A stretch of 64,000 nt of DNA, from positions 6,613,001 through 6,677,000 of the forward strand of contig CM073325.1 of the NCBI GenBank assembly GCA_037043015.1, given 5' to 3'. Within the stretch, counting starts at the first letter, position 1; the number at the start of each line of letters is the position of its first letter. The notes under the pieces are model-generated. The model worked only from the letters and a program-made list of their open reading frames with translations, made no database searches and had not been told where the DNA came from. Of the stretch, positions 3,572 to 54,275 are shown piece by piece. This DNA comes from Bryum argenteum (lineage: Eukaryota; Streptophyta; Bryopsida; Bryales; Bryaceae). Position numbers and translations under genes: made by a program.

Positions 3572-3603
<32 letters not shown>

Positions 3604-3693: not shown

Positions 3694-3935
3694 TTGCTCA
3701 CGAGGTGGACCGGCGGTCGCCCAGTGACCTACGGTCGCCCACCAGCTGGATCGGCGGTCGCGCGATCCAAAGGTCGCGCCCCCACGCATACATCGCGCCC
3801 TCCCATTTGGAGGTCGCGCCCTCTGACCGATGGTCGCACACCAGGTGGACCGGCGGTCGCCAATCCGCTGGATCGGCGGTCGCCCTGGCGACCGACGCTC
3901 GCCTTTCAGCTGGATCGGCGGTCGCCCTAGAACCA
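3694..3935. repeat. GC-rich GGCGGTCGCC-type array 2
   Basis: Repeated GGACCGGCGGTCGCC and GGATCGGCGGTCGC units. The dominant orientation is the reverse of array 3 (5,455-5,650), so arrays 2 and 3 form an inverted pair around the gene at 4,213-4,917. That is the layout expected of the two subterminal regions of one DNA transposon. I found no convincing terminal inverted repeat or target duplication outside them. Confidence 0.65.
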
Positions 3936-24114: not shown

Positions 24115-24127
24115 TTACCCCTTTTTC
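24115..24127 (-). other. Polypurine tract
   Basis: On the element's strand the bases directly before the 3' LTR read GAAAAAGGGGTAA, a purine tract of the kind that primes plus-strand DNA synthesis in LTR elements. Confidence 0.8.
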
Positions 24128-24170
24128 ATCTGTGAGCGTCCTCGCGAACACTCCGCCCCTGTAACTCCTG

Positions 24171-28361: not shown

Positions 28362-30020
28362 TCATTTATCCGGGTTCTCTATGCCGGCAGTGGAACCATA
28401 GTTGAGGCCGGACTGAGAACGGGGAGGGGTTTGCACCGACTTGTAGATGACCTTCGGAGGCGGCTTCTTCGGACAACCCTCGAGGTTATGTCCGTACTCA
28501 TGGCAACCCTGGCAAGGTAGGTTCTTCGGTGCACCGGGCTCGACGTCGGGTACATCACAGCCGCTGGCATAATGCCCTCTCCTCCCGCATCGGTAGCAGA
28601 TGACATAATCCAGGTAAGTGCCAGTGAGGGGCTGCCCGGATGGCTGTTCGGGTAGACTCCTTCCTGGGGCGGCTGGGTACGACCTGCCTCCGGAACGCGG
28701 GGTGACACCTCGGCCGCGCCCATACCCTGCGTGAACCTGGTACAGGGTAACCACCTCCTCCTCTTCCGGTTCCTCCTCCTCGTCAGCCAGCACGTATCTG
28801 ACCCCGGTCTGGGGGTCAGTCCACTTCGAGGACCTCCTGGTGGACGTGTTGGGGCACTCCGTGGGGTTGTGCCCGTACTCCTTGCACTTGGAGCACCACA
28901 CATTAGCTCTTTGCGTCGGAGGATTTTTGCGGCCACTCTGGAGTTCGGCCATGTTCACCTTGATAGCTTCAAGCTCCGCCAGAACCTTCTTGAGACCATC
29001 TTCCTTCTCAACCTTCACCTTGACCGTGGCGGAACTCGACCTTTTGGAACTTTTTGCCTTCTCCGGTTTGGCCTCCTCCTTGCTCTCCGAGCTATCCGGG
29101 TCGTTCGACTCCTGGTCGTCGCTACCCGCGGAACTGTCCGAGTCGGTGTCCTTCTTCTTCTTACCCTTCTCCTTTTTCTTATCCTTCCCCTTCCTACGGC
29201 TGCTACGGAGGGCTTGAGCGGAGTCCTCGTAGTCCAGGGCAGCATCCATGGCTTCCCGGAGCGTCTCCGGTTTGCTCCTCCGGATCTGGAAGGACATATC
29301 CTCCGGTAGCCCGCCCACGTACCACTGGACCGCCACCATCGGAGCGATGTCGAAGGCTACCTTCTTCATGAGGGCTTTCACCCTCCGCCCGTCTCGGGAC
29401 GGACTCGTCTTCGCGCTTCCGAACTTTCCCGAGTTGCATCAGGGCCCGTGCTTCTCCTCCGGCTTCCCGGAAAGCATGAAGGAAGGCTATCCTCAGCTGA
29501 TCCCAGTTGGCCTTCACATCTGCGGGTACATCGTTGTACCACTTCAACGCTTCACCTTTCAAAGAACCCGGAAAAGACACGGAGTCCGGACTCGGATCTT
29601 CCAGTTAGCATCATCGGTGGCCACGAACTCCTCGACCCAATCGTCCACGTCCTTGCCACCATCACCTGCGAAGCGGCTATATTTCAGCCGGGTGAGTGGT
29701 GCGCGACGGAGTGGAAGGACAGGGTTGGGGTCCATGGGATCTGGGTTAACGCGGCCCGGACTGGGCGGCCCTTCGCTTCCCGGAGGGGAACTAGGTGCGT
29801 CGCTCTCGGATGGGGGTGCTGGTACTGGGACCACCCCTACTGTAACCGGGACGACTACCTCCTCAGGAGGGGATGCGTAGTGGATCTCCTCCTCCTCGTA
29901 AGCAAATTCGCGAGCTTGTGCGAGCTGCTCGATCTCGGCTGTAGCCCTTCTCCTGGCTGCCCGGGTAACTCGACTCCCACTTGGCTCACCCGTCTGCCCT
30001 CGAGTCATGAAGCAGTACAC
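28362..30020 (-). pseudogene. gag: Retrotransposon gag, frameshifted
   Basis: Three overlapping open pieces in different frames (30,020-29,559, 29,580-29,203 and 29,381-28,362) make one gag. The first has an acidic Pro-rich N-terminus, the second a capsid-like segment (GSLKGEALKWYNDVP), the third a charged Lys/Ser/Asp linker and three zinc knuckles of CxxCx4HxxxxC type (CSKCKEYGHNPTEC, CYRCGRRGHYASGC, CQGCHEYGHNLEGC). The frame changes near 29,570 and 29,390 mean no full-length Gag as read. They may be true mutations or sequence errors in this GC-rich stretch. gag ends in TGA, in frame with pol. Confidence 0.85.
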
Positions 30021-30172
30021 CGGGTATACCTCCAGTGGCTCCTAGACTGGGGGTTGGCTCGCACTTGCAACTCCTACCCGCAAGACGATGTGAGTGGCTT
30101 CGATCTCGTCACCGGAACCTCCAGTGTGGCTCTCCTTCTCTCCTGGCAGGAATGTCGAACTTGCAGCTTTAG

Positions 30173-30192
30173 GATCCCCGGCAGCGGCGCCA
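30173..30192 (-). other. Primer binding site
   Basis: Ten bases inside the 5' LTR the element strand reads TGGCGCCGCTGCCGGGGATC. It starts with TGG, the complement of a tRNA CCA end, and closely resembles the primer sites of Athila/Tat-type plant elements. Which tRNA is used cannot be fixed without the host tRNA set. Confidence 0.75.
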
Positions 30193-30202
30193 AAAGTAAT
30201 CG

Positions 30203-32623
30203 TGTCGTAACGTGCTTTTCCGATTCGTGCCCGGATAACCCTTTTTCGCGGTAAAAGAGGTTTCCCAAACAAGAACCCGAGTATTCGTTCCACGGAGATC
30301 CTGTGAAGTGCAAGGTCAAAAATTTTCACCAGTTAGCAAACCCGGGTTTGTGCTATCCGGGTACTGTCCTATCACCCCTATACCATGTATCCTGTCCTGG
30401 AAAAAGCTGCCCGGACAGGAGAAGAGAGGGGGGTTTAGTCTTTGTGGTTTAGTTTAGCCTCTGTATTCACCTCAGAGGGGTTTTCCCGCGTTTAGATAAG
30501 TGGGGGGATTAGACCACTTTTCCCGTTGATTAACGTGACCGGAAAGGTCACCGAGACTCTCTCTCTCTCCTTACCCTGTTAGGAACTTCCCTTATACCTC
30601 CCTCTACGCCCGAACTCTACACCCACGCGCATGTCACAAAGGTTGGTATCCGGTTCTCCTATGGTCCGGTTATCACAACTCACTACCCGGGTTAGTAGAT
30701 CCCGGGTTACTGGACTGGGGGTGGTGCGACTGGCCCGGAGTTCACCGCTATCACCTACGGCCAATTCTGCCTATCCGGACTTCAGCAGATCCAGGGGGAC
30801 TCAACCGATGGTGTTCTCGGGAGTCGGTTAAGCGACCGGAATCCCTTCCGAGCCGCTGTAATCCCAGACGCTACACGGACAGACCGGACCGCACCATAAG
30901 TGGCAAGTGCCGTTCGCTAGCCGCACTCCTCCCTTGTCAGCTTCTCTACCTCCCGTACTACTCTCCGTTCAAGGACGGAACCGCTCTCTCTCTTGCCCGG
31001 ATAGCAAGGGTCCTCTGAACTCTGCAACCACCCCGACCCAGCAGACAAGATAGGAAAAGGAGAAGGACACACAATCAGACACACACGCACTCACACGAGG
31101 GAGATGAGAAAGAGGCGTGCTTGCACTGGATTATGGTATTGCAAAATCACAAAAAGACCCCGAGGGAGTATCCTTCCCTCGGCTAAGTAGCAGATCCTCC
31201 CTGGCATCCCAGAAGAGGACAAAATCCTGCGCCAGGGAATCTTTCTAAATCCGGCCTTTGTCAGTCTAACGCCGTCATCCTCCTACTCGCCATAAAGGCA
31301 CTAAAATCTAACCCTATCCTCGGCCAGGTGCACCCGCCATTAATCAACTCGGCCCTAGTCCTTCCTGTCGCGCTCATCCTACTTCGCGACCTCGCGCCTC
31401 GCGATCTCGGCGGTCTCAACCTTCCGCGCTCCCAACCCGGGTTGGGAGGTGACCTCCTCCTCCTCGTTCCCCGTCTCCCCGAGCACTGGGCGGTCTCTCT
31501 TCACTCCCAAGGATCTCGGTGTCCTCAAGGCATCGGGGTGAGGTGTCCGGAGTGCCTCCCGATCTCCGGGACCTCGATCAAGTCCTCGGGGATGAGGGGA
31601 CGGCCTCCGCGGTCGGTGCCTTCTCGGGAGGACCTCGGCTCGTCGAGAGGGCTCCGGTGGGACGGTTAAACCCGGACAGCGAGGTGCCCGCGGCTCCTCT
31701 GTTCCCAATCCGGTTGGCGGGTATCGGCCTCACCCCTCCTGTCTGGTTGGATTGTGGCCTCTTGGGCGGGAATAGGACTCTGTCCTCGGGGTCCCGATCG
31801 GGACCGGGAAATGGGGAAGGATTCCTTACCCGGGTATCCTCCTCTGCTATCCGAGAAGCCTCTCCTTCCACCGGGGTTATGCCAGCCTGGATGATCTTAC
31901 TCCGGGTTCGCGAAGCTCGCTCTCCGGCCATGGTTCCGTACTCTCATTCCCCGGGCTATGGCGTACGGGACGGCCGCGTGGAGCGGGAGCGTGCGTGCAC
32001 GAATCGCGGGAGCGAAGCGTCGCGGGAGCACGAAAAACGAGGAGGAGCAAAAGGGAGGGCAACGGCCAAAATTGGGCCGCTAAAGACAACGGAGTGGGGA
32101 GGTGGATGGCGGCGCAGCATTAATCACGGGCTTTTGTCAGCTCGGGACTGTCGGCGCCGCCGCCAGGGTTTTCCCCGCCCGACCCGTTCGTGGATCCCGA
32201 CCCGGCCGCTGCCTTCCTCGGTCTTCGACACCCGACCGGGCCTCAACCGGTCGAACCATACCCGGCTGACCATACCAGGTTGAGCTATACCCGGTTGGGG
32301 CAACCTTTTCCCGGGTAGGCGTCAACCCGCGAAGAGCCGCTACGCGTTATCCGGGTCTGCAGTGGCCGACGGGATACGACTAGGCAGAACCCTGGCTCGA
32401 GAACAGGGGATACAAAGCAAAAGAAAATTTAAAAAGGTAGTACTACCCTACCCCGTCCACTAAGCCTAAGGATGCCCCTGGGTGGGCAGGTTCCTGGCCG
32501 AGTTAACCTTACCCGGTCATTACCCGGGTAGGCCAGGATATGGACGTTTATTTCTCCTAATTAGCTATTACTAACCGCTATCCGGACTCACTTGGGCAAA
32601 AAACGAAAAAATGAGGTTTGACA
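30203..32623 (-). repeat. 5' LTR
   Basis: A 2,421-bp partner of the 3' LTR. Differences cluster in the GC-rich middle (about 31,330-31,830) and are often single-base losses within G or C runs. Confidence 0.95.
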
Positions 32624-34041
32624 CACCACTGCCAGGACCATCTTCCAACATTTTGAATAAGTAAACCTTGTCCTTCCCTTGGCCCGGAAATACACTACTT
32701 TGTATGTACTCAAGTGTACTGTACCTCTTCATTGCAAGAATGTTATCAAATGCACTGCCCTTGCCCCCGCCTCTATTCAATGAAATCGTGGTTCTCAAAT
32801 TTGGGGAACTGAGGTACTCAAACTTATCCAACACATTCTCCAAGTCTTTCCCTCGAAGCATCTCTTTTGCTCCAGATCCACTGTGAATGAGGTACTTATC
32901 TAAGAACTCTTTACTTGCAGCCATAGCTATCGCTGAATTCTTCGCAGTTGGTGTTTTTGCAACTTCTTTAGCAATTAGACTGGATATTGTGCTCACAATC
33001 TCACGACAAACACCGCTAGACACCGGATGGAGATGCACCCCTAAATGGATGCATGCCCTTGTCATATCGTTTGTACTAAGGACGTAGTATATACGACCGT
33101 CACAGAAACTAAGACATGTTGGAGGAACTTTGCAAACTTTGCAAACTAAAGTAGATGTAAGAGGACGCGTTGACCCAGCTTTAAAAGGAGTGTTGGTTTG
33201 GCCAGACCACTCTGTTTCATTCTTCTTTCCTGCTCTTGATAAGAAATCGCATGCATCATTCTCACAGACCAAATGACCGACACAAGAAGACTTTCTAAAA
33301 GTTAGTCCTTCTTTGTTGTGAATATTAGTTGTTATAGTTCGACACCATGCATGACCATCATATCGCTTATCCATACCATCCATTTGATTCCTTGAACCAG
33401 GTATGGAAGAATGACTCGGAGGCAACTCAAAGATGACATCTCCATTGTATACTGGAGGGAGAAATTGGACTTTATGATACGTAATCTTGTCATAGTCAAT
33501 AGACGCAAGTTCAGTTCTAGAACCTGGAAGAGAAGAGAGGCGTCTCAAGCATTGCATAATACTCGAGGGTTCTCGAGTATTAGGATGACATGGAGGCCGA
33601 GAAATGTTAGAATAACCTGAAGACTGGCCCAGAGTATGAAGAGAATTAGACCGATCACTAATGAGAACGTATAGTTGTAGGTGAAGGGACATCACGAGAA
33701 TGAACTACATTGTTAGGAATTTGACCTTGTGATGAGTCACTTGACAATTCCACTGCGTCACCATGACACTCTTGTTTCACTCTTGATACACTTAGACCAA
33801 ACGCCCTATATCTTCCGCTTGGAAGAAGCCAGTATTGTTCATCTTCGTCATGACAACTCAGTTGCAAAATAGTTCTATCTACAACACCAGATTCAGAGAA
33901 CACCTCTTCTTCAATAAAAATTGAAGAGAGTTGTAATCCGAAGCGCACGTGTAGGATTTGGGCAGACACTCTAGCACGACCTTGTTCTCCAACTTGGAAA
34001 ACAAGGGGGATTGGGTGACCAGATGCTCGAACAAAAGCCAT
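32624..34041 (-). pseudogene. MULE-like transposase, 5' part
   Basis: The upstream half of the gene continued at 21,692. A first open piece (34,041-33,658, starting MAFVRASGHPIP) is followed by a second in another frame (33,695 down to the LTR boundary); a short intron or a frameshift near 33,660-33,700 is needed to join them. The second holds a Cys/His cluster that may bind zinc (SSCVGHLVCENDACDFL, CKVCKVPPTCLSFCDG) and ends FKMLEDGPGSG at the insertion site. With the retrotransposon and one CACCA copy removed, this frame runs straight into the downstream half. The role is inferred from the DDE-like and SWIM-like regions of the other half. Confidence 0.6.
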
Positions 34042-34649
34042 ATTGTAAACCGAACAGATGTTGTAAACAAGAAGCGGAAAGAGAGCATAACATAATCTTA
34101 AGAAATAACTATCAACAATGGAAGTTAAGTAGGAAAAATATCGGAATTATTGCATGCACTTTAAAAAATTGAGTGGTATTTTATTAGATTCTAACAAAAA
34201 TAGAAAGCGGCGCAAACCAAACATTAGGTGAAGTATATGTTATTAATAATGGTTGTTTATGATTAAATAAAGTAAGGAGAATTAGAAGTAGGTATGCGTA
34301 TCTGTGGTAACATGTGAGATGTCAGCAATCATATTATAAACACAATATAACGCCAAAAATATATTTTTGGTAAGACGCCAATACGATTTTAGAGTAGCCG
34401 TCAAGTTACTGACAATATCTAGATATAGAATTAATTTTTTGAAATTCAAATTACGTAGCCGCATGTTGCTCTGCGGAAATTCCGTACTCGTTTTCTGACA
34501 ATTAACGCGGATGACAATATCTTAGTAACGGTGTTCAATTGCAAATGGTAGAATGTATTGGAGCTTGGAGTTTCACTCATTCTCAAATGCTTCGTGCAGG
34601 CACCACTTAGCGCAGCCTTAGCCGTCGTTGTGAAAGCTATTGGGGACAC
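34042..34649. other. AT-rich intergenic DNA
   Basis: No supported gene. It separates the MULE remnant from the divergently oriented gene at 34,650. Confidence 0.4.
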
Positions 34650-35343
34650 ATGAAAGAGGGTAGTCATATTGTTAATCAATCGACGGAAGCAACACGGAAG
34701 CGGAAGAAACGAAGAGGTGGCACTAGTTTTAGTGGTTCTAAGGAGAGGAGGCGTAGGGAGTTTAGGAAGAAGGCAGTTTTGAGTGAGATTTGTGGGAAGA
34801 CTATAAGAACGGTATGTGAGATTGACGACAAGAGACTTAGATCAAGTAGAAATTTTAAGAGTGGTACACTAGATATCGCGGTTGTTGAGGAAAGTGAAGA
34901 GGAGGAGAAGGGAGTGCGATTTAAAAGATTGTCAACAATGTGTTCGGAAATCGAACGTGCGCCACAGAGCTTTGTAGAAGAGAGTGATTCTGATGACGAG
35001 ACGGCAGGCGGGTCCATAGCTACGGTAAATAGTCTTCTTATTCAGAAAATTGCATGTCATATTGACAATGTATTCTTAGATCTTGTGTACATGAAGTGAA
35101 TCATTTAGTGAAGTGATTGTTTTCAAAGAAATGGTAGCTTTATGAAAATTAAAGTTTCTGTGTATTTTGTACTGCACCTTTACTTTTGTAAAGGGAGGTG
35201 GCGGAATTATATGCGCCCAAGAGTACGACATGGAAGAGTCGGATAATGACGAGGTGAATAAGGATGATCAGATCAAGACTAACGAAGCAACAACAACGAA
35301 GTTATTGCCTTCCAAGAAAAGGGCTCATCTGTCACACGCAAAG
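34650..35343 (+). CDS. Basic/acidic low-complexity protein, possible 5' exons of the next gene
   Basis: Two likely exons, 34,650-35,024 and 35,194-35,343, joined by GT-AG and keeping frame (125 + 50 codons). The product starts very basic (TRKRKKRRGG, SKERRRREFRKK) and turns acidic (ESEEEEKG, EESDSDDE, MEESDNDEVNKDD), as in nuclear proteins. The second exon ends with AAG|GTAGAA in phase 0. The exon at 36,854 of the ParB-methyltransferase gene also begins in phase 0, so these exons could be an alternative 5' end of that gene. Otherwise the protein would end at the stop at 35,371-35,373. No domain recognised. Confidence 0.45.
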
Positions 35344-35904
35344 GTAGAAGAGACTTTATTTATTAAGTGTTAAATAAATTATCGAAGTTTTCTAAAAATT
35401 TAAAGCGATGATACTTGAAGTTGGCTTAGAGTATGGAAAAGTATGATACATTTTATTTATGGATTGAGATTTTATTTCATTGAAATGTAATATCACTATT
35501 GTTTAGTTTGTAATTACTGCTTGCATTGGAAAGTCAAAGCAAATTATTATCTCAGTATTATACAAAATGCTCATGTGTTATATTCTTGTATTCTAATGAA
35601 TTAAAAAATAAAATAAAAAGAATTGGCTCAATTAGAAGGTACTCCATTAACGCACTTACGTACTCATCCACTTTCCTAAGCACCTCCCAAACCCCATCCA
35701 CCAACTATACTTTCTCAATAAACCTAATTTTCATATTAGATCTAGGATTGGCGGCTTGGCGGCTTTAGGGTTTAGGAATTTAGGGTTTAGGGATTGAAGG
35801 TGAGGTGAAGCTTGTTCACTTCTTGGTTATCTTGTTTTGAGTTTTGAGTTTTGAGTTTTGAGATTTGAGATTTGAGTGTGTGCTTATTGAAGGAGAGGAA
35901 AGAG
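35344..35904 (+). promoter_or_regulatory. Leader/promoter region with telo-box motifs
   Basis: Upstream of the ATG at 35,905. It carries TTTAGGGTTTAGG and TTTAGGGTTTAGGG at about 35,763-35,793, i.e. telo-box motifs (AAACCCTA on the other strand) frequent near plant transcription starts. A run of TTTTGAG repeats lies at about 35,834-35,872. Confidence 0.45.
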
Positions 35905-38900
35905 ATGGAAGGTGAAGATAGCGTGGTTATGGCAAGCGTAGTTATGACACCGGATGAGACTCAAGAGGAGCATGAAGTGGAGAGAGAAGCTGCAACACCC
36001 AAGGTTAGTAGTCATGAACAAATTTCTAGTACAAGATGTGAGCTTTTTAAGAATTGTGAATCTCGAATCTGGAGCCTTTCATTGACGAAAGCCTCCTTCA
36101 ATGTGTGCTGGGCGGGGCGGGACATTGTGTGCTGATCGGGGCGGGACACTGCCAGCCGGCGGGGCCGGGCGTGGGCCGTGGGGGGGTGCTAGCTAGGCGT
36201 GGGTCGGGAGGGGGCTAGCTGGGCATGTGTCACGAGGGGGGCTGGCTTGGCGTAGGCCGGGGGCCCCTGGCATGGCTGGATCTGAGGGAGGCAATTGGAT
36301 GGCCAAGTGCACGCCAAGTGCATGTCCACTGTGCATGTGCACTAAAAGCTTGGACCGTCACTGCGCATGTCCACTGTGCATGTGCACTAAAAGCTTCCGT
36401 CACTGCGCATGTTTACTGTGCATGTGCACTAAAAGCTTCCGTCACTGCGCCCGTAGGATCTCAGTCCAAGTCTCGATCGAAGTTAGGCTACAGTAAGAGC
36501 ATGAGCCAGGGTGTCAATTGAACAGGTTGAATTACATGTCGTAGAGCCTTTCGTTGACGAAAGGCTATCTATGTGAGGTTTGTTTGAAGTTGGTTTTTGA
36601 TGAGTTATTATTTTATGGGATTTGTGCCAATTTTATTTTACATGTCATAGAGCCTTTCGTTGACGAAAGGCTATCTATGTGAGGTTTGTTTGAAGTTGGT
36701 TTTTGATGAGTTATTATTTTATGGGATTTGTGCCAATTTTATTTTACATGTCGTAGAGCCTTTCGTTGACGAAAGCCTCTTCTCATGATTTGATCATTCT
36801 AATTTTTAGTACTAATTATCCTTATGTTATGGTGTTTTGTTATGTTTTGTTAGGATGGAGGTCCAATTCTTCATATACCCGAGTGCCCAGACACAGAAAA
36901 TGACCTTGATGTGAGTGAGATTGCCCTCCGCAATATACAGAAGGTGGATTCGATCAATGTAATCAATCGGTTGCGAATCAAGCCTTCATCTAAATCACGG
37001 TTTGTTATTCCATTATGTCGTTTGCGGTGTCTTCCTCTTGTACGTCCTATTAGCGAAGTTAACGTGCAGTGCTTGGAGAACGATTTCGTTATGGGATATC
37101 GAGATGGAGATCGAGTCCTCTATGTATCCATATACAATGGTGGAGATGCCGAGTTGACGGTTACAGAAGAAATTCGTGCATCTTGGAGTGCTCATTGGAA
37201 AGCAGCAAACGATGCATTCGAAAACTTTTTAGCTGCAGATGAAGATCTCAAGGTTTTCAGCAACAAAATGTTTTTTGTGTATGAGGGAAACCATCGACTG
37301 TCTGCATGGTTTCGCCACATCAACAAACATCATGGGGGCGATCCTGCATGGCATATAAGTGTTGATTGCATCGTTCTAGATGCACGGAAACAAAGTGGCA
37401 TTCTTCTCAACGCCATGAGCGATATTAATTGGTATGATTTTGTACTTGTTTATGTATTATAAATCTAATTGAATTATTATTCACGTGGTTATTGTTTAAT
37501 AATTTTTTGTATTGTTTGTGAAGGTCTACCGAAAACGATCATGTGAAGGCCGAATTAACATCCAGATTACAACGTATTCGTACGTTTGGTAATTTGAAGC
37601 TTGAGGAGTTTAAAGACCTTATTTCAAAGGAAGAGTACGCCATTTGTAAAAAAGAAAAAGAAAAAAACCCAACATGGTATCCATTGACAATTGATATTTT
37701 TGTTGCATTTCTTTACAAGGTACAATTTTTCCATTCGTTTCCTCTTTCTTTCATGACTATAATTGTATTTTTTCATTTATTGATACTATAAGTCATGTAC
37801 TACTGTTGCAGAGAGAGATTTCTGCAGCTGCTGATGAAGCTGCTGCAAAGTATCGGGAGAATACACCTGTGAATGAAAGAACAACCCCTGGAGTTTGGAC
37901 AGCAATGACAGATGCTTCTAAGTTAAAGGTGAAAAATCTGCGATCAAAAGCTTTTGACAAATACCTAGCGGTGGCTAACAAAGACAACGGAGACGCCTTC
38001 TTTGATGAGGTATTTGTTTTCTCATTTGCAATTCTCTGATTTATATGTACTTGGTTATATATATATATAGTTCTAACTCAGTGTTTTCTAAATGTGTTAT
38101 TTGTGTAGATTAATTATCATTTTGCACACATGACCAATCCGGAAATGACTATTGAGAAGTTACAGAAGATAGTAACCACTCGAGTTGAACCAAAATATAA
38201 GACACGATGGTTGAAGTGGTGGAATTCTTTTAAGGATGCTCGAAGAAGTTTCAAATTTCCTCATACAAAATCTCTTAAGGATACAACTCTTGATACATGG
38301 CTTATCAAAGCATCCTTTTGGGCACAAGTGAGTTTTTATTTAATTTTTATGTTCGATTATTTTGTTACTTATAATACTTTGGTTTTTGATAAAGTTTTGA
38401 TTTATTGCAATTGGAAGAGGCGATTGTAACTGGGTTTGTCGAGAAGGAAAAAAGTTGTGTTTGTCCCATTCAGAATGACGTTTCTGGAGGTCTTTTTAGC
38501 CCTGCTGAATTTGTTGATCGGTGGCGTATTATTCTGTGGGACAAAGCTTTTTTGCCATTGATTGCAAAGTTTGCAAAGTCTACAGTTCTTACGACATTTA
38601 AGGGTGGAGACATGGCTATCAATCGTGTGATGTACCGGTATGATATAGCATCACCTTAAGAAACAATTAATTTTTCTTTTTCTTTTCTGTTAAAATTCTA
38701 AGTGTTTCATGTCAATATTAATTCAGGTATTTTTATCGTGAAATCGTGACGAAGAATGCTCTTTCAGCAGAATTTGTCCCACCCATTCTTCAAACTTTCT
38801 TGGATTCTACATCCGATGAATTCATGTATACACCTTTTCAATCTCGGAAATTTCCTGTTTCTCATCTACGAGCAGGAGGGTGGTATCTTGATTGTGTGGA

Positions 38901-40624
38901 CGGATTTATTCCTCCTGGCGAGGAAAGCCTTGTTCAATCTCTTGACGAAATTCCGGATCTTCATTTGGAGAATCTGAACACTATTCTATGTGATGTGGAG
39001 AATGAAGATTTGGAGGAGCAACCTAAACGAAAACGGTCCAAGAAGACAACCAACACATCTCCTGCCGTTGCAACTCGCTCTACAACGAAGGCAACCTCAC
39101 GAGATTCTCCAGCAAGTGCTCATCAGAGGATGCTCAACAAATGGTCGATTAGCCATTGTTTGATGCCTTTACTGACCTAACTTGACGATTCCTACTTTAG
39201 GCTCTGAGGTATCCAAGCGCAAAGTGACTGTACCCACTACAACCATTACTTCTTCTAGTACAATTCGTTCTTCCACTCTTCTTGAAAATGCAGACTTGGA
39301 GGAACTTATTGAGTTCAAGCAAATGAACGGTGTTCATGATCCTATTTATGAGCGCATCCAGAAATTTATATCGGATGTAAGTTACTTATCACCTCTTCCT
39401 ACTTTATGTATTGCAATCTACATTATTTAGAAATTGTGGCTAATAATTGTTGTCTTTTTAGGTTCGTACATCGCGACCTCATGGTACATCAAACATGATC
39501 GCAAATCATTCCGGACTTGACCTCATTATAGCGGATGTACCAGAAAACCTGCCAGTGCCACTTGTCTCAAGCACTACGGTACCTGAATGGAACAAGCGCT
39601 CAGAAGGTTACTTTGAGTACTTATTTTCATTTGCTGCTGCAAACTTGCATGACGATGCAATTTTGCTTGTAGTTCATCCAAATGATCCTGCTTTGTTACT
39701 TGATTTGCGAAATTGGGCTTATACTTTTGAATTTGAGCTGCTACGCGATTGGTGGGGTCTAAATAACCTCCATCTTTTTTCTTCGGTTGACCGTTCACAA
39801 AAGGTGCAAAATTCATTCCATAAACTTCTATTATTCTTATGTCATTTTACTTCAATATTTGTATTTCTAATACTTACAATTTTTTGTTTTGTAGACTTTG
39901 CGATTTTTCATCAAGGTTTATACTCGCATTGGTTCCAAAGCCTCTATTCAAGAAGCAAGTTCTTGGTCGGACTTGGGATTTTCTCTCGAAAATGATGGCT
40001 ACCTTCAGAACTTCACAAACTCAAAGTGTCAACTTATGAATGATACAATTCCGTGGAGAGGGGCCCGCGAGAAGCATCCTAAGTTCATGCAGATTCTTAT
40101 TGAGTCTCTTACAAAAGAAGGAGACATTGTTCTTGGTAGCAAACCAATACAGTCTTGTTTTTTTTTCCAACTAATAATTTTTTATATGTTGATTTTCTTG
40201 TTTTTGTTTTAACACTTTAATTTATATCTTGATGTTCATTTTATACAGGTGCCTCAGTTTTAGCGTGTCGTGACACTGGTCGTCATATCATCGCTCTGGA
40301 GAAAGACATTAAAATCTTCAACGGCCTTCTCAAGAGATTTGAAAAACAAGAAATCCTCCCATCTGTTTCTATGCCAACACGCCCTTCTTTTTTTTCGGAA
40401 CCTCCTCCACAAAAGAAGCGAGAGCGTATTGCTCTTTGTGCGTAAGTTTGATAATCAATGTTAATGATGTTAACTTATTATTTATTTGATACATTTCTAT
40501 TCTTAAATATTAAACTTACATAATATCTTGTATTTTTTGCAGAGGTTCATCTTCAAGAAAGAAACGGATACTTACAAAGGACATGTTTATTAGTCCTCCA
40601 AAAGATTTTTACCTACCTACTTAA
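35905..40624 (+). CDS. ParB-like / DNA methyltransferase-like fusion protein
   Basis: Twelve exons: 35905-36003, 36854-37431, 37524-37719, 37812-38009, 38109-38327, 38420-38637, 38727-39115, 39201-39376, 39462-39803, 39895-40135, 40249-40441, 40543-40624. All junctions are GT-AG; the 2,931 nt encode 976 residues. The exon 7 donor (39,115) is the least certain. Residues about 70-185 look ParB-like, ending in FFVYEGNHRLSAWF. The middle is unrecognised, followed by a basic linker (KRKRSKKTTN). Residues about 700-905 follow class-beta DNA methyltransferase order: motif IV (LIIADVPEN), YLFSFAAANLHDDAILLVV, then HPKFMQILIESLTKEGDIVL and ACRDTGRHIIALEKD. Motif IV has DVPE instead of (D/N/S)PP(Y/F/W), and the glycine-rich FxGxG of motif I is shortened to LGAS, so activity is doubtful. 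The reading ends at TAA 40,622, but the frame stays open to 40,783. Confidence 0.75.
36113..36290 (+). repeat. G-rich imperfect repeats in intron 1
   Basis: Repeated GGGCGGGGCGGGAC and GCTAGCTGGGC/GGCGTGGGCC-like blocks with many runs of three or more G on the plus strand. Such DNA or RNA could form G-quadruplexes. It stands out from the AT-rich surroundings. Confidence 0.6.
36326..36450 (+). repeat. 42-45 bp minisatellite in intron 1
   Basis: Three units beginning CACTGTGCATGTGCACTAAA and ending CCGTCACTGCGC, starting at 36,326, 36,371 and 36,413. Each contains the palindrome GTGCATGTGCAC with one central mismatch. Confidence 0.85.
36532..36777 (+). repeat. 106-bp tandem repeat carrying a palindrome
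   Basis: Two full units and a third partial one, nearly identical, with period 106 bp. Each contains a palindrome with 10-bp arms AGCCTTTCGT and ACGAAAGGCT around a central TG, at 36,545-36,566 and 36,651-36,672. The third copy (36,757-36,777) lacks one base in the right arm. A weaker copy lies at about 36,070. Confidence 0.9.
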
Positions 40625-40783
40625 GCTGAGATTCTTGCACAGGAATTTGTAAACGCACCTTCTCCAGTTCTTTCCTATCGTAAACGTTTCAATCCTATTG
40701 TTGAGACGTTTATTGATTTAGAGGTGGAAGAAGATAATAGGAGGTTTTCAGGAAGTGAAGGTAGTTCTAGTCCAAGTATTTGA

Positions 40784-42220
40784 AATGTTTTGGATTTGAT
40801 TTTGTGATTAGAGAAGCAGGCTACATTCTCAATCACTCTCATGTTTAGTTTGGATTTTTGGTATTTAATATTAATTATTCATACTATTAGGTTGATTTGT
40901 TATTTTCTTCTGAGTTTAGTAGATCCAAATCAAATGTTTTTCTCTTTGTATTGGTCTTATTTTTATGAAATATTTTCTTTAACATTGTCATTCACTTGTT
41001 AGTTCACAAATTGATTTGCACTTAAATATTTCTGTTTTTCTTGCATAGAGTGATGTCAGCCCTAATTTAATTTGCCTTGTCTAATACAGCAAAGAAATTT
41101 TATAATCTTTTTTGAAACTATAATACATAACTTAATCATATGGTTGTATTATTTGTTATTGTAATACATGAGTACTAAGTAGTAACCAAAGCACGGTCTT
41201 AGGACACTTTTTTTCTTTCATGCACAAAATTTCTAACATGATTTCCACGGATTTAGGGTACCCATATAAAAATATTCAACTTGTATTTCAAAAAAATTAG
41301 TTACAACTTATAAACTTTGTGATTTGCCACCCACGGTTATAGGTCCAATCCACCTTTTATTTCCTAGTAAATATTTGGGTTCATATGCTCGCAAGCTCAC
41401 AAGCTCACACTCCTAGGCTCACCTACTAGCAACCCTGAGTTAAGAATATGCCTACACAAATTTTTAGAGAAAGTTTCATATAAGATCACACAATCATTTG
41501 TAACACATTTCTACATTTGGGAACAATTGCAAAATAATTCATGACCATTCCCTTCTCTAGAATTCTTTTACAAATATGCACGTGCTCTACATGAAAATTC
41601 TTCAAGTTAGTAATACTTCTCTCAATGATCAAATTAGTGAATGTTTATTATTTTCTATACTCAACAAATTTAAAGACATAATTTCATGACCAAACTATAA
41701 AATATTCAATATTTCAATATTCTAGAAGTTGTTAGAAATTTGGAGAGGAGTTCTGTATAACATTGTCCTAGTTTTTATTCATATTTTTTATATGTGTATT
41801 TTTTATTTTTTATTTTTTTAAAATTTAAAATTCTTTTTACTCCTTGTAAAAATATGTGTTTAATATACAATATGAGTGCCAGAATCTAATCAACAATGAT
41901 AGAAATCATAATATGTCAAGAAAAGTTTTAAAAAAAACAACTTCGAAGTTGAAGCTTGCCCATAGCAAGCTATAGTTCCCCAAAGTACCTATAAGATTTC
42001 CTAAAACTTCCTCAAAATACCCATGAAGTTTCTTAAATCCCCTTCAAGTACCTACAAAGTTCCATAAAACTCCCATATGCCCACAATCTTTGCTCCCCAT
42101 GGCTAATCTTTGGTGAATTGTCCTGTTTAATTAATTTTGGAACTCAAAACGAACACAAACTCCCCATGACTTAAAAACTACCTCAATTATTATTTATTAT
42201 TGAAAATAAATAAATTGCAA
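40784..42220. other. AT-rich intergenic DNA
   Basis: No supported gene. About 41,300-41,440 carries an inverted, diverged copy of the repeat at about 18,960-19,350 (CCACGGTTATAGGT; GCTCGCAAGCTCACAAGCTC). Confidence 0.5.
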
Positions 42221-42330
42221 GCGGACCGACCCAAGAGGACCGACCCAGGAGGACCGACCCAAGCGGACCGACCCAAGAGGACCGACCCAAGAGGACCGAC
42301 CCAAGGGGACCGACCCAAGCACAGACCTGA
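42221..42330 (+). repeat. 16-bp tandem repeat
   Basis: About seven units of GGACCGACCCAAGAGG type (CGGACCGACCCAAGAG and close variants), upstream of the VIT/VWA gene. 42,331-42,794 shows nothing further apart from the presumed leader of that gene. Confidence 0.85.
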
Positions 42331-42794
42331 GACTACACCGACGACGGACTCGAACCACCGACACGACTTCGACGGACGGCCGACACAGTCGGGCGTTACT
42401 ACCGGCTCTTGCCATTCGGCAACTTTGATCCATAATGATTTCCGATCATTAATATACAGATATCCAATTACTGATCTCCTGAACTAGAACCGTTTACTGA
42501 ACATTACAGACATAACATAAGCATGTTCACAGTTGAGTGACCAGAACACGGATCGCATGGCATTACCATCGTTACGTCTTCCACATGCGCAGCTCGATTT
42601 ACATAATATTTATAAGGCTCCATGCTCGTTCATCTTGTCACAGTTTCTTGTTCTTGAACCTGCAACTGAGAAGCTATTCAGTCGCCTTAGCAGAATCATC
42701 TGCAAGAAAACTACCAAGACCCTCATTCACTAAGACCTCGAATGTGCGAATTGATATTTAGTACAACTACTGGTATTTGCTCTCTCCAGTCAAA

Positions 42795-45500
42795 ATGGCT
42801 TCGTTGAGATGGGTTAAAGTGCCAGGTGCCTGTAAAGTGCACCAGTCCGCTCCTCTGCGGCATGTGTCGGTGCGAGGCGTCTTGCGCGATACAGTAGCGG
42901 AATACACCATAGAGCAGACGTATGTCAACCCGCTCCAGAACGCCACCATCGCCGCGGCTTACACGTTCCCATTGTACGAGGGCGTGGCCGTCTCCGGATT
43001 CGAAGCAGAAGTGGATGGCCGTAGAGTCGTCGGCAGAGTGCAGGAGAGAGACGCTGCCAGGAGGGAGTTTGACGAGGCTGTGAAAGCAGGCAATGTAGCC
43101 AGTTTGTTGGAGCAGGAACGACCTGATGTGTTCCAGGCCTCAATTGGCAACATCCCTCCCGCCAAAACCATCGTCATTCGTATCACTCTCGTCTCTGAAA
43201 CCAAACACGACGCGGACCAGAATCAGGTAAGACTCGTATTGCCAACTACCATCGCGCCTCGTTACGGCGGCGGTGTTGGTGTGTTTAGCACCCCTCAATC
43301 CTCGAACTCGAAGCTGTCGGTGGAAATCTCTTGCGCTATGGCGACACCGATCACCTCCATCCAATCCCCTTCTCACACCATTCAAGTCCACCTCGGCTTG
43401 ACAAGGGTGAGCCTGACAGCGGACTCGTTCCTCGACCGTGACCTTGTGATCATCGTCCAAGCGCTGGGGTTAGATTCACCTCGTGCAGTGGTGGAGCGCC
43501 ATCCTAGAGATAGAACCCACGCTATGTCGTTGACATTCTCCCCCCGGTTCGCGCTTAACCCTCTCAAGTCCTCCGAGTTCATCTTTGTCGTGGATCGCTC
43601 GGGCTCCATGGGAGGCTCCAAGATTACGCAGGCTGGCGAGGCGCTGGAGCTATTCCTCCGTTCCATCCCGTCTGACGACCACTATATCAACATCATCGGA
43701 TTCGGTGACACTCACAGAGCGCTTTTTCCAAAGTCAGTCGCCTACTCTGTAGAATCGTTGAAGCTGAGCACCAAGTATGCGAGTGCACTTACGGCGGACA
43801 TGGGTGGCACGGAGATTACGAGCGCTGTCCAGGAAGTGTTTAAACGCCGTCGCCGCGATGTTCCAACCCAGGTGTTCTTGCTTACAGATGGGGAGGTATG
43901 GGATGTCGACACCCTAGTCCAGTGCATCAAAGAGGCCGTGGCGGAAGGCGAGAAGTCGAATGCCTTCGTAAGAATTTTCTCTTTGGGTATTGGTGCTTCG
44001 GTGTCCCATCACCTGGTTGAATCTGTAGCGAGAGCTGGGGGTGGATATGCCCAACTCGTTATGGAAGGCGAGGGCATGGAGAAGAAGGTAGTGAATATGC
44101 TGAAAGCAGCCTTGATGCCGCCCGTTACCAATGTGGGCATCCAATGGACCGCAGAGGATGCTCATGTCGAGGACGACTTCGAAATGGTCGAAGCTGCTGA
44201 AGAATCTTCTCAGCCTGCCAAGGGCACCATCATGGAGCCCAGCAAGGACCCCATCAGTCTTTTCTCTACTGTTCCTGAGCTTCCCCTGCCGACTCCACCT
44301 GCACCTGCGTCCGTGCTTCCTGACGTAGTAATTCCCATCCAGCAGGCGCCGTTCACGGTGCCAGCCTTATTCAGCGGCGCTCGCTTCACCATCTACGCCA
44401 TCCTCTCAGCGGAGACAACAGTTCCCAAGGAACTCGTACTACGAGGTTCGTCGGCGGACGGACCGGTAGAGCTCAAGGCGGAGGTGGTATCTACTGAAGA
44501 GGGGAAGACGATGTTGCACACATTGGCGGCTCGTGCATTGGTGCGCGACTTGGAAGAAGGAGCCTCCTTCATTCATGCTTTAGCGGAAGGCAGCTCCAAG
44601 CAGATGCTAACGAACCTTGGAATACATACGTTAAAAGAGGGAATAAAGTACAAAATCCATCCAGTGAGCGACAAGATAGTCTCGCAGCTCGCCAAGCAGA
44701 AAATTGTGGACCTTGCTTTGTCTTATCGGCTCTCCAGCAAGTACACTAGCTGGGTAGCAATTGACACGGAATGCAATCGAAGCATCATCCATGATAAGGT
44801 GCGGACGGACACATATGATGAATCGGCGGTATTAGACACAGTAGGGCGTCGTATGAGGCCATGTAAACGCTCCGTGAGGAAGCACTCAATCGTCCCAAGT
44901 CTCGGTGGACAGTATCAGTCCTCGCGGCACTGCAAGACGGAGCCCATACATTCAGCAGGTCCTATTAGGATGCGGATATCAGAGTCAGTAGGTCGTGGCT
45001 TCTGTAGTAGTTATAGAGGGAGAGAAGCATCAGAAATTCTTCCTTCATTACACTGCAGACTCAGACTAAGCAAGGTTATCGATGATGGTGAACTTGAGGA
45101 ACCAGCAGATGCACACACACGATTTTCCTCCCTCCTGCGCCATCAACAGTTCGATGGTTTGTTTCCTCTGGTCCCAGAGATTGCGGCCCTGTTCTCCACC
45201 ACCGTAAAAGAGCTGAAATGCAAGCTGGCCCAGGAGGTTTATAAGCTGGATGATGGAGTCCAACTTTCGGAGGCGGAGTGGGACAGCGTGTGGGCGACAT
45301 GTTTGGTGGTGGAGTTTCTGAAGCAACACTTACCCGATCTGCAAGAGGAGTGGGAGCTTGTTGTGGAGAAAGCACAGAAGCGACTGACGGCCATGGTGAA
45401 GAGTGCGGAGGGTTTTGAATCAATTCAACGGGGTGCAAGGGAGTGTATGAAAACACTAACACAGGTCGATCCAAGTGCGATACCGACTACGACTTCATAG
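42795..45500 (+). CDS. VIT and VWA domain protein
   Basis: A single uninterrupted frame of 901 residues from the first ATG (MASLRWVKVPGACKV). Residues about 5-135 form a VIT domain (VAEYTIEQTYVNP, AAYTFPLYEGVAVSGFEAEVDGR, NIPPAKTIVIRITLV). Residues about 258-430 form a VWA domain with a complete metal site (FVVDRSGSMGG, then MGGTEI and LLTDGEVWD). A linker rich in Pro, Ala and Glu and a C-terminal helical region follow, ending near EGFESIQRGARECMKTL. This is the layout of inter-alpha-trypsin inhibitor heavy chain and VWA5-like proteins; the plant members have no settled function known to me. There is no clear signal peptide, so a cytosolic location is likely. The lack of introns contrasts with its neighbours. 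Confidence 0.9.
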   Translation: MASLRWVKVPGACKVHQSAPLRHVSVRGVLRDTVAEYTIEQTYVNPLQNATIAAAYTFPLYEGVAVSGFEAEVDGRRVVGRVQERDAARREFDEAVKAGNVASLLEQERPDVFQASIGNIPPAKTIVIRITLVSETKHDADQNQVRLVLPTTIAPRYGGGVGVFSTPQSSNSKLSVEISCAMATPITSIQSPSHTIQVHLGLTRVSLTADSFLDRDLVIIVQALGLDSPRAVVERHPRDRTHAMSLTFSPRFALNPLKSSEFIFVVDRSGSMGGSKITQAGEALELFLRSIPSDDHYINIIGFGDTHRALFPKSVAYSVESLKLSTKYASALTADMGGTEITSAVQEVFKRRRRDVPTQVFLLTDGEVWDVDTLVQCIKEAVAEGEKSNAFVRIFSLGIGASVSHHLVESVARAGGGYAQLVMEGEGMEKKVVNMLKAALMPPVTNVGIQWTAEDAHVEDDFEMVEAAEESSQPAKGTIMEPSKDPISLFSTVPELPLPTPPAPASVLPDVVIPIQQAPFTVPALFSGARFTIYAILSAETTVPKELVLRGSSADGPVELKAEVVSTEEGKTMLHTLAARALVRDLEEGASFIHALAEGSSKQMLTNLGIHTLKEGIKYKIHPVSDKIVSQLAKQKIVDLALSYRLSSKYTSWVAIDTECNRSIIHDKVRTDTYDESAVLDTVGRRMRPCKRSVRKHSIVPSLGGQYQSSRHCKTEPIHSAGPIRMRISESVGRGFCSSYRGREASEILPSLHCRLRLSKVIDDGELEEPADAHTRFSSLLRHQQFDGLFPLVPEIAALFSTTVKELKCKLAQEVYKLDDGVQLSEAEWDSVWATCLVVEFLKQHLPDLQEEWELVVEKAQKRLTAMVKSAEGFESIQRGARECMKTLTQVDPSAIPTTTS

Positions 45501-46017
45501 CTTTCCGCACGTTCAAATGAAATCATTAGAGTGCAGTGGCTTCATTAGGCACCTTCATCACCGAATTCGCAACTCTATTGCTAATGGATCAAATGTAATA
45601 ATCATCATGACGAAACCTAAATAAATGAATGCTGAGCGACCAACAATTGCAACAATTGCATGTGGTCGACTACGGAATAGTACCCCAAGATTCATTGGAA
45701 TCAAAATATAATGTCAAAAGAGTTAAAACTTCATCATAATCTTGAAATAATAAAACTTCGATTGGGTGCATGCCAAGGTCAAGGAAACATCGATCAACTT
45801 GCAAAAAGAATGACCACCTTTGCTGTCTTGGGTTTTACGGATATAAAATTAAGAAAGTCGAAAATACTCATAGCATGTTACACCCTAAGTAACTGCTTGA
45901 AACATTGATACAGAAATGATCATACCAGCTAACTAGCTCGCTAAGCTTGAAGTCTGTCGACCATGTGGGTCATTCCGAGAATGCTTGCAGTAACGGGACT
46001 GTACCAGGAAATTCAAT
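45501..46017. other. Convergent 3' intergenic region
   Basis: Lies between the convergent stops of the VIT/VWA gene and murD and probably holds both 3' UTRs. No gene seen. Confidence 0.5.
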
Positions 46018-49000
46018 TCAGGTTGATACCACTCTGGCAAGCTCGGCGAAGACTTCGCCACGGTGCTCAAAATTTTTAAACTCGTCGAAACTGGCACACC
46101 CAGGACTCAGCATCACAGCGTCTCCTGCACCATCATTTCCAGCACAATTATTAGCTTCATATAGAAATTCGCCGACCTATAATAATGAAGTGCGGCTCTT
46201 CTTTCTTTGTCCCTAATACAAATAACATCACAAGCAGTTCTTGCACAAAATCAGAACCTTACATGAAGCTCAATGACTTTCAGTTATATTATATCGCTTC
46301 TGAGGAACGTATGGACAAGAATCTTTCTCATGATGCATAGAAGTCTCTAGGGTAGGTGCACAGAGGTAAAATTCCCAATAAATACCCTTGTTGTATTCTC
46401 TTTAGAATAAAAATTTATGTTTTCTCTTTACTTGATTGAATTTACGGCTACAGGATGTAAAATGATCCGGATCAAACAAGAACTGATTAGCAGGTTGAAG
46501 AGCTCTACCAGGTTCTGCAAGAGAGCGAGCAAGGTGAACTGCATCTGCTAGATGTTCAGTGTATTTGCATGGAATATCCAGGCCTGCGCTCCGCAATTCC
46601 TCCTCTATAGCAAGACCAGATGCTCCAAACTACAAAGGAAACACAGGTAAATGAGAGTAAAACACACAGCCAAAATCGCCCTTAACTTAACCAGTGATCA
46701 TATTCAAGGCTGCTTGAAATCGAACATGGTTTCTTCGTCCTCAAAGGATTAAGTCTGAGCAGCCAAATCAGTCATATGCACTAGCATTTATGCAACTCAC
46801 AAGTACAACAGCTCGATGCGATAGTAGATGTTCTACTAGGAGGCCGAATCCAAGTCCCTTGCCTTTTGCTCCAGCCTGCTCATGCATTAGATGGTACTCT
46901 CAAAGATCTGCCACATTGAAATTCATCGATCCATGTGGCATGGCACTCGAAACACCACACTTGGACTTGGTTCTAGCAATCTGGACATCAATGAAGTCTG
47001 CTCAAGAAACTCTAGCATCGAATGCAAAAGGGTAAGATAACAACCTTTGCTAAGCCTCCGAGCAAGACCACTGCTTTCTTGCCTACAAGCCCTCGAAGAC
47101 CAACCAAGGTAGCATCCACATTGGTGGCCTTACTGTCGTTCAACCACAACACGTCCCGATCGTCTTTACACACTGGCCAAGCCGATAAATAACAAGTCAT
47201 TGAATTGCGCCAACAAAATCTTAAGGGAGCACTTCAGGAGATACTTTTTAACAGAGAGCTTACCGATTTCCATGCGATGTGCAGGGGTCTTCAGGAGAGG
47301 AATAGCTGCTTGAATGTCGTCTGATTGAAGACCAACGTCTAGAGATAAAGCAAGAAGAGCAGCTGTTCCCGCATTATGAGCATTGTGCGCACCGATAGCC
47401 TGTAGACCACTTAAGTACAAGCGTGCCTCTATGCCTGTCGTTGGCACCACAACTATTGCCCTTCGAGCATCCCTATCCAACTTCGAAAGCAACAACATCG
47501 TTAGAATCCAATAAGGAATCACTCAAGAAACCTTAAGGATATTCCCCTACATCGATATCCCTTTTTGTATTACAGCACTGTAACATTGGTACATACTTTA
47601 TGGTGATGGCGTTACCATATGAGCTCATTATGAAGGCTATAACATGAAAATGCTTATCAAAAACAAAGACAACCATACTCGAAGATGAAGAGTATATTTT
47701 CTGTACAGTCGTTAAGAACAATTATCAACAACAAAAAGAAGAAAGAAGTTATGGCATTAATGTAGGTGACACTTGATAGTACAAGATCTGTAGGTTTTGG
47801 AATAGAGAAGTGCGCAAGCTTGAACAATAAGTGCTCTTTAATTTAGAACACATGTTGCAAAAGATACTCACTTGAACACCAGGAAGGCCTCCCATCCATG
47901 CCCTCGTTGCTTGCGATCCAGACATGGCAGCCAGCCGCCTCAAAAAAGCATCAGCTGTGAAATCAAAGAGAGGGTTATTCAATGCTCACGTTCCACTGTC
48001 AAATACAGAAAAGAAAAGGGATAATCTGTGGCTCTCACACTGAGGTATGATTGCAACGTCAGAAGCCTCCATGCGCGAAAATATTCGGCATTTCGTCGTT
48101 CCATAAGCCTCCATGGTTTTATGCCTCTCCAAGTGATCGGGTGTCAAATTGAGAATGGCCGCCACCTGACAAGACATTACTGTCACTTTCCCATATCGAA
48201 ATGACAAATGTGAACCTCAAAGTTATCCAGTAAGGTAAAAACTTCAACGACAAATTGGAGATGTCAATATGATGGACAATACCTTCGGATGGAAAGACCC
48301 TGGGAGCTCCAGTTGGTAACTGCTCACCTCCACTACTGCTACCTGGCAAACTATATCCTCATAAGTGCTCCTCAAACGAAAGTCCGTATCCTCAACAGTA
48401 ACATGTTAATTCGTAAAGACATAATTTCGACTTAATGATACAATTTGAATTGTTCTTTGGAGATTCATTTTAACTCCACTGCCTGTTGAGGGGAGGTCTT
48501 ATAAAGCTTTGAGTAGGTAGTGCAAGTGAGCGCTACGAATAGAGCTTCACTGGCATGAATATGTGCAGTAAGATTCTCATGAGCTCATGAAAGGGTTGAA
48601 GGGGACTTGCATTGAAAGGAGGGTCCTCTGCAGGGAACGCAAGGCATTGCAAAACACCCTCTGACAGTGGAGTGCCGAGGTTACCGCCCACAAATGTCCG
48701 CACTCCTGCGTTCTTCAAGAACTGGAGAAGCAACCATATGCAACAATAAGCAAACATTGATGCTGCTACCGAACCTAGAAACCAAGTACCCAGCTAAGGT
48801 TGTTAATAAGAAGCTTCATCAACCTGGCCTGTGAACGTCGTGACGGTAGACTTGCCATTGGTTCCTGTCACCGCCGCTACCTTCACACTCTGTGGGAGAG
48901 CTGCCGCTGCAAATCCTAGTTCTGAAAACGCTGGCACCCCCTGAAAACTCCATACCCACACTTCATTGAGCGCCATCGGCACCCCACAAATCAAGACTAT

Positions 49001-52873: not shown

Positions 52874-53667
52874 CTACACCACAACTGCCTGGCTATGTAG
52901 AAATTCTTTGAATGTGTTTTTTTGGAGTCTCAGCTCCTGTGGATTTAGATACTCTTCAATGTACTGTACCTCCATTAGACTGACATTTACACCTGAATTA
53001 AAGATGTTGAGAACCATCGAAGTCGATGTGTGCGTAGACTTTTGCAAGCATGTATTGTGACTGGACGGTTTGAAAGTATTTTACACTAAAGTTGCAACTA
53101 TGAATTTTTTTCCTTCAGCATTCTTAACAACTTCTTTCAACTTTAAATCGTTAAAGAATGTCGATTTCAATTTTTCTGTGTAAAGATTTACAATCTAATG
53201 CTATCAGTACAATCTCATCAAGCATGCTCCTATACATCCTACTACGAACCCTACCAAAAAAAACTGCTAGTATTTATCTTGGTATACATGCCTTGTTGTA
53301 TTTTATAAATACAAGAAAATAATTGCAAAGTTATTTTGTGGATCCAAGCTTGCACAACTTACATTTAGTAAAAAAAATGGAGATTTTAAAAACAAGATAC
53401 TAAAAGGTGAAGGATAGAATGTTTCATGTCCTTAAAAGTGGAAAAAGACAACATGCTTTCACGTGGATGATCTCTGCAAACTGATTTCTACTGACACCAA
53501 TCTTCAAATTGTGCAGTGAAATGCCAAGCATTGCTACTCGACAATGGAAAAACAAATCATGCAATAACAAGGTAGAATTATTTTATTGAAGCTCTGAAGG
53601 CAATTCATGAACTTTCAAACACTTATTGTAAGAAACTGAAAATTGGAAATACATTTCACTCTCAATA
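52874..53667. other. 3' flank of ISPF and intergenic DNA
   Basis: Contains the ISPF 3' UTR and AT-rich DNA. No gene seen. Confidence 0.5.
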
Positions 53668-54047
53668 GAGAAATCCGCTAAGTACAACGGACTGGGGACG
53701 AGAACACCCAGTTTTGGTCGGACTGGGGACGAAACGTCGAACTGGGCACCAACTTTTTACACTACGATCGAACTGGGGGCTAAACTCAAGAATGCACCGA
53801 TTGTGATGGTATTCCGAGTTTGGTCCCTAGTTCGACTTGGTGCCCAGTCCGCAGCACACCGAGAAGCTAGAGTGAAGAGTTCGGAGGGGCAGCGCCGAGC
53901 GCCGAACATCTGGTCCCCAATTTCGTGCATTTGGTCCCCAGTTTGCTCTACTTAGCGGATAACCGAAAACTGGGCACGAAACGACGGACTGGGGACCAAC
54001 TGGGGATCAACTAAGGTCCAAACTGGGGACTACTTAGCGGATTTCTC
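53668..54047. mobile_element. 380-bp MITE with ACTGGGGAC repeats
   Basis: Perfect 17-bp inverted termini GAGAAATCCGCTAAGTA, flanked by TA on both sides (53,666-53,667 and 54,048-54,049). The inside is packed with ACTGGGGAC/GTCCCCAGT and ACTGGGCAC motifs in both orientations. A second internal copy of CTACTTAGCGGAT lies at about 53,948. The TA duplication suggests the Tc1/mariner group. Non-coding. Confidence 0.85.
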
Positions 54048-54275
54048 TAATGTATACAAATTTTTTTGTTGTTCACTATACAAATGAATGAAACTTGGAT
54101 TTCTCAAATTGATACTTCAGTGAGATAACATAGCTTTTAAAGCATTAGATTATAGTACATGATCAGGTACTAAAAGTGAGTCGAAGTAGTACTCCTACAG
54201 TTTTAGGATTGTCGAATAAAAACTGGTACAACGTTAAGTAATTGGTAACTTGATATCTTGAGTTATCAATTCATT

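Follow-up and report, generated by a model that had tools for sequence, protein, structure and literature searches.

A spliced gene for a ParB-like, methyltransferase-fold protein is probably a decayed accessory gene of a high-copy Mutator-like DNA transposon

Proteins that join a ParB-like domain to a DNA methyltransferase are already known as transposon passengers in algae. In the accessible text of Dinatale et al., the Ectocarpus transposon Sola1-1_Ec32, a large DNA transposon, encodes a 1104-amino-acid protein with ParB-like and N4/N6 methyltransferase domains on the strand opposite the transposase, and green and red algal cases are cited there (Iyer 2011; Petroll 2025) (PMC12477816). A phage survey, in the part available, places the N6_N4 methyltransferase among frequent fusions (PMC12704722). 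Other plant DNA transposons carry VANC proteins, which are described, in the accessible portion of one account, as binding regions rich in short motifs and inducing the loss of silencing marks (PMC10398659). The Marchantia N4-methylcytosine (4mC) methyltransferase is said, in a source available in part, to have no extra domains (PMC8885841). Here we examine a window of 64,000 nucleotides (the whole stretch analysed, C5:6613001-6677000) in a genome of 259 Mb and 25 contigs. The window holds a spliced gene for a ParB-like, methyltransferase-fold protein, which the initial annotation took for a single odd gene while knowing of no such fusion in eukaryotes. A brown-algal case is in print (PMC12477816), and the gene turns out to be a broken member of hundreds of dispersed copies. 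It probably belongs, as a decayed accessory gene, to a Mutator-like DNA transposon of high copy number; such an element would bear two divergent genes, one for a transposase and one, with many exons, for a protein with ParB-like and beta-class N6/N4 methyltransferase-fold domains.

The transposon extends from about 19020 to 41437 of the window (∼22.4 kb, including 10.9 kb contributed by a nested retroelement). It has short imperfect inverted ends, 19027-19062 matching 41395-41430, and is flanked on the left (19010-19019) and on the right (41438-41447) by the duplicated target AGTTAAGAAT. This duplication is 10 bp long, and its identity reaches 11-12 bp under some placements of the ends. The left end (19020-19090, plus strand) contains a cluster of TGAGC motifs, three in the first 150 bp compared with ∼0.1 per 150 bp internally, and the right end (41367-41437, minus strand) contains a cluster in the inverted orientation, with three in its final 150 bp. 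L043 and L044, two sister copies, match the window through GCAACCCTG, after which the flanks diverge (L044 shares three further letters), and the right end of the element is therefore real. The minus strand carries a transposase gene, oriented divergently to the ParB gene. Its 5' part (32624-33704) is 43% identical over 319 columns to a relative in an element on contig C7, and its next part (21062-21692; 60% identity over 67 residues) resumes past a Ty3/gypsy-type long terminal repeat (LTR) retroelement of 10.9 kb nested within the gene (21693-32623, minus strand). The two LTRs of this retroelement (21693-24114 and 30203-32623) are 97% identical, its flanks carry CACCA, and its pol open reading frame (ORF; 24171-28361) has the Ty3/gypsy order.

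Two related elements, on contigs C4 and C7, are ∼98% alike across 18 kb, and, like the window element, have TGAGC clusters at both ends. By eye, a 9-bp target duplication was seen for the C7 element and none for the C4 element. Target duplications of 8-11 bp together with inverted ends mark the Mutator superfamily, and the 10 bp of the window and the 9 bp of C7 fall within this range. The transposase, for which a search gave 13 relatives, looks IS256/Mutator-like. The initial annotation had offered a transposon-borne gene as one option, and the inverted ends, target duplication and divergent transposase bear it out. Two fragments also belong here: an incomplete copy of the C4 element, in inverted orientation, ∼2.4 kb beyond that element (C4:20512500-20524700, or 35534-47635 of the joined C4 stretch), and a 0.4-kb piece of the window (53663-54060) with two counterparts, 96-99% identical, in the region of the C7 element.

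Exact matches to V-[WYC]-E-G-N-H-[RS], the box of the ParB-like domain, number 464 genome-wide, and those to D-[LF]-I-[FY]-A-D-x-P, methyltransferase motif IV, number 338; the reversed patterns gave 0 in both cases. These counts are independent of the scored homology lists, from which copy counts are lower bounds: every one of the 150 scored places matched both for the ParB exon (best 150 of 1139 candidates, on 12 contigs) and for the motif-IV exon (best 150 of 945), and the best 63 of 1534 transposase candidates yielded 83 matching stretches. At 56 of the 150 listed motif-IV places, a listed ParB exon precedes the site on the same strand by no more than 8 kb, and the spacing is 2.4-3.1 kb in 52 of these 56 pairs; among the listed places the reversed order does not occur, and the opposite strand occurs once. 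The earlier claim that a single gene joins the two domains agrees with this constant order. Transposase and ParB exons no more than 16 kb apart are divergent in 20 of 21 pairs among the matches listed, counted with the 63 main transposase matches after 20 weak N-terminal ones were dropped. Of the 150 places listed for each exon, contig C1 (44 of the 259 Mb) accounts for 82 with the motif-IV exon and 47 with the ParB exon; C1 is possibly a repeat-rich or sex chromosome.

The gene itself occupies 35905-40783 on the plus strand. Its first model, a 976-residue frame running from an ATG at 35905 to 40624 through 12 exons and eleven GT-AG introns, could be reproduced in full, but parts of that exon structure are lesions when set against relatives. 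The proposed intron 7 (39116-39200) has no counterpart as an intron in L045 and L046, relatives in which exons 7 and 8 are a single exon (ORFs 2917-3729 and 2856-3806, respectively), and the window has a frameshift and stops at this place; by eye, sister L044 is open across the region, and sister L043 carries a separate deletion there. Both of these close sisters have a sense codon in place of the terminal TAA (40622-40624), beyond which the window frame continues to 40783. The donor of intron 10 leaves out a part of motif I, where relatives read D-[WL]-[ST]-[AP]-S-T-G and where the window, by eye, has a one-base frame change. Judged from these sequence lesions, the window copy is therefore disrupted and the 976-residue protein is a conceptual product. 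Its nearest sisters, L043 and L044, are likewise broken, partly at other positions; L045 reads open by eye across all pieces, and L046 has a frame change. Intron 1 (36004-36853) has a G+C content above that of the other introns and contains 106-bp tandem units with the near-palindrome GAGCCTTTCGTTGACGAAAGGC, probably a nested insertion. Upstream of the ParB exon, a short conserved reading frame (SDADSDLS...RRSPRLAAK) occurs in L045 (240-632) and L046 (339-719), and the window has a 162-amino-acid frame at 34611-35099 that matched no Pfam family.

In the methyltransferase half, exon 9 (39462-39803, plus strand) carries motif IV, reading DLIIADVPENLPVP, and exons 10 and 11 (39895-40441, plus strand) carry motif X and a degenerate motif I. 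We built a family profile, A2, from four members and compared it with solved structures. It matched DpnA at 1.3e-7, in the motif X/I part only, and CcrM at 2.8e-5, in an alignment that spans motif IV to motif I and so reproduces the beta-class order (motif IV, then X and I) that the initial annotation had read from the window. Three of the four profile members matched PF01555 at E <= 1, the best at 1.5e-7; the fold could thus be reached through members of the family, whereas a PF01555 search with the window copy alone gave no match. By profile we class the protein with the beta-class N6/N4 methyltransferases, as what appears to be a relative by descent and not an enzyme by motif. The CcrM alignment sets D-P-P-Y-N-L against D-x-P-E-N-L, and in place of the catalytic [DNS]PP[YFW] the window has DVPE and 304 of the 338 genome sites have D-x-P-E. 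Motif I, usually D-P-F-x-G-S-G and DPFMGSG in DpnA, is DWSASTG in L045 and DLTASTG in L003. Motif IV reads ADVPEN in the window, ADAPEN in L045, ADVPES in L046 and ADIPEN in L047. Synonymous sites are saturated for the pairs tested among the window, L045, L046 and L003, and in the motif-IV exon L045 and L046 differ with a nonsynonymous divergence (dN) of 0.26 and 80% of synonymous sites changed. As the variants persist despite this saturation, the change in motif IV is an old one by sequence comparison and has probably been selected.

It has been suggested that algal relatives, including the Ectocarpus protein in the accessible text on it (PMC12477816), methylate DNA, and the protein described here might in the same way be an active amino-methyltransferase that marks its own element with 4mC or N6-methyladenine (6mA). 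The beta-class order and profile match are in keeping with this, as are the C4 and C7 copies, which lie just over the PF01555 cut-off (27.6 bits against 26.7 for the C4 exon) and combine a DTPF motif IV with a D-L-T-A-S-T-G motif I. We nevertheless find it unlikely, given the prevalence of D-x-P-E. A wider motif-IV pattern with an aromatic end gave 30 sites, compared with 8 in the control; three of the 30 are DTPF, of the C4/C7 type, and P-P is absent from all of them. (DFIHDDCPY, a motif-like site that recurs among the 30, probably belongs to another repeat family.) Methylation by a D-x-P-E protein is doubtful because, by analogy, changing SPPY to APPA abolished the activity of the rotifer enzyme N4CMT, as the available part of that study reports (PMC8885841). 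Because D-x-P-E is conserved at motif IV in the abundant clade, the methyltransferase fold there has probably been kept as a DNA- or cofactor-binding part and is no longer a methyltransferase; methylation may persist in the rare DTPF-type element.

Exon 2 (36854-37431, plus strand) encodes the entire ParB-like domain (residues 34-225), including the stretch VYEGNHRLSAW in which the initial annotation recognized a ParB/Srx signature. The GNHR box, of the GxxR type and following a strand, is invariant in all 20 rows of a chosen alignment (17 of 30 loci, mostly without stops or truncation, together with the window, L003 and a fern protein). In a profile comparison with nine ParB domains the box fell into register (E 0.037, 14 columns); when columns were shuffled, the match of the whole domain was equalled in 1 of 150 trials, and that of a version with an insert cut out, a cut chosen afterwards, in 0 of 150. 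As a control, the methyltransferase profile scored E 0.34 against the same nine-ParB set. One of 20 members matched a ParB-like PHROG (E 0.0035). The architecture also argues for ParB, since the same domain order occurs in L048 and L053, both of them phage proteins, in which PF01555 comes after PF02195. Against this assignment, Pfam scans of the ParB exon matched no ParB family, a genome-wide search with PF02195 gave 0 matches above cut-off and one at 16.6 bits (E 1.49), the profile comparison covers only the 14-22 columns around the box, and the AlphaFold model of exon 2, built from 2 sequences, reached a predicted confidence (pLDDT) of 34. A search of the phages with the ParB consensus (tblastn) gave a best hit of only E 8. 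It may then be that the N-terminal domain has another fold and resembles ParB in the GNHR motif only, which, with the box in register and the phage domain order in view, seems to us improbable. The signature first noted is thus recurrent but without a curated profile behind it, the ParB assignment is plausible by sequence features, and we call the domain ParB-like and not a member of PF02195. Stray profile matches were seen to MoaC, a beta-propeller (0.0086) and others in ParB-exon members, to an unnamed PHROG in four of them (best 0.013), to eL24 in the PDB (0.66), and to DUF3391 and Cas_CT1975 in the window protein.

Beyond this genome, a full-length protein search found one homologue among 7992 scored proteins, P0001 of the fern Adiantum (26% identity over 31% of the query), while an alignment-based search found none. 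The fern protein aligns across both the ParB and the methyltransferase regions, and at the position of motif IV it has CHLPTN. The sole Pfam domain named in the whole of P0001 is an extra C-terminal NIF phosphatase domain, which may be a gene-model fusion.

The gene might alternatively have been recruited from a transposon as a host gene, an option that the initial annotation had left standing. In favour of such domestication, the ratio of nonsynonymous to synonymous substitution (dN/dS) in the ParB exon is low between copies: 0.05 for L040/L046, 0.08 for window/L014 and for L025/L026, 0.09 for L022/L025, 0.15 for L034/L040 (with dS near saturation) and 0.22 for L022/L026. The ratio was computable for 6 of 36 pairs, the other 30 being dS-saturated, and covers 9 of 22 ParB exons. 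However, such ratios can be explained by selection during amplification, and the hundreds of dispersed copies, the adjoining transposase, the target duplication and the lesions in the window copy and both nearest sisters lead us to reject domestication as very unlikely. Both domains are otherwise familiar mainly from bacteria and phages. Contamination with bacterial DNA, or open frames arising by chance, can nevertheless be dismissed as next to impossible, given the introns, from which the initial annotation had rightly concluded that the gene is nuclear and not contamination, copies on at least 12 contigs of a land-plant-like genome, the empty controls for both motif patterns, and viral and prokaryote contig scans that revealed no relative at the sensitivity used.

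NAC-domain genes are regarded as plant-specific. The 28 exon matches to PF02365 in this genome therefore point to a land plant or streptophyte as the host, in a comparison with prokaryote genomes that separates plants from prokaryotes and not from other eukaryotes. Elsewhere in the window there are remains of a hAT transposase (6497-8911; DUF659, E 5e-36, and Dimer_Tnp_hAT, E 2e-6), a single 912-amino-acid open frame (42762-45500) that encodes VIT and VWA domains and lies a little beyond the element, and host-type genes, NOL10-like and DUF7733, at 56522-57238 (minus strand) and 60715-61329 (plus strand). Scans of the window for Rfam families and tRNAs found nothing.

With this in mind, one may speculate on a role for the accessory protein. 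We tentatively suggest that it binds the DNA of its own element, for instance the TGAGC clusters at the ends, which are candidate targets of either this protein or the transposase, and that it thereby aids the movement of the element or its escape from silencing, as VANC does for VANDAL. A bolder version, to which we give less credence, is that a ParB-type DNA clamp is combined with a methyltransferase fold in which DPPY was replaced under selection by D-[VAI]-P-E; such a protein would coat the element ends and control transposition or block silencing, might carry a chemistry other than methylation, and would have aided the spread of the element to hundreds of copies. The gene would widen the range of transposon-borne ParB-methyltransferase proteins beyond algae, to land plants, whose silencing through DNA methylation is well characterized and open to genetic tests. 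With an altered motif IV kept across old divergences in hundreds of mobile copies, the methyltransferase fold would make it possible to test directly whether these passengers act by writing marks, by reading DNA or by blocking silencing. For gene annotation there is also a warning, as spliced and conserved-looking genes of this type can be parts of transposons.

How, then, does this locus compare with known systems? Our literature search, which covered few subscription papers, found no ParB-methyltransferase transposon protein in a land plant. The phage fusions of Streptococcus phage Javan316 and a Desulfofustis phage (L048, L053) have the same two domains, but they are ∼420 amino acids long, show a clear ParB profile match and, in L048, have DPPY, whereas the plant protein has introns and a middle region of ∼460 residues. 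Rotifer N4CMT, compared by description only, is likewise a bacterial-type amino-methyltransferase in a eukaryote, with its catalytic part preceding the part that binds S-adenosylmethionine, and differs in its SPPY motif, demonstrated activity and chromodomain, according to the accessible text (PMC8885841). The Arabidopsis VANDAL elements are Mutator-like. Their VANC genes, also compared by description only, resemble the present gene as accessory genes of a plant DNA transposon. Sola elements have a target duplication of 4 bp. Sola1-1_Ec32, as described in print, is among the closest cases: the domains are the same, although the ParB half is only ParB-like here, and the gene likewise lies within a DNA transposon, opposite the transposase strand. 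Unlike it, the element described here has a 9-10 bp duplication and mostly D-x-P-E at motif IV. What is new in comparison with the algal passengers is thus the land-plant host, the Mutator-like carrier with an IS256/Mutator-like-looking transposase, the hundreds of copies and the recurrent D-x-P-E motif.

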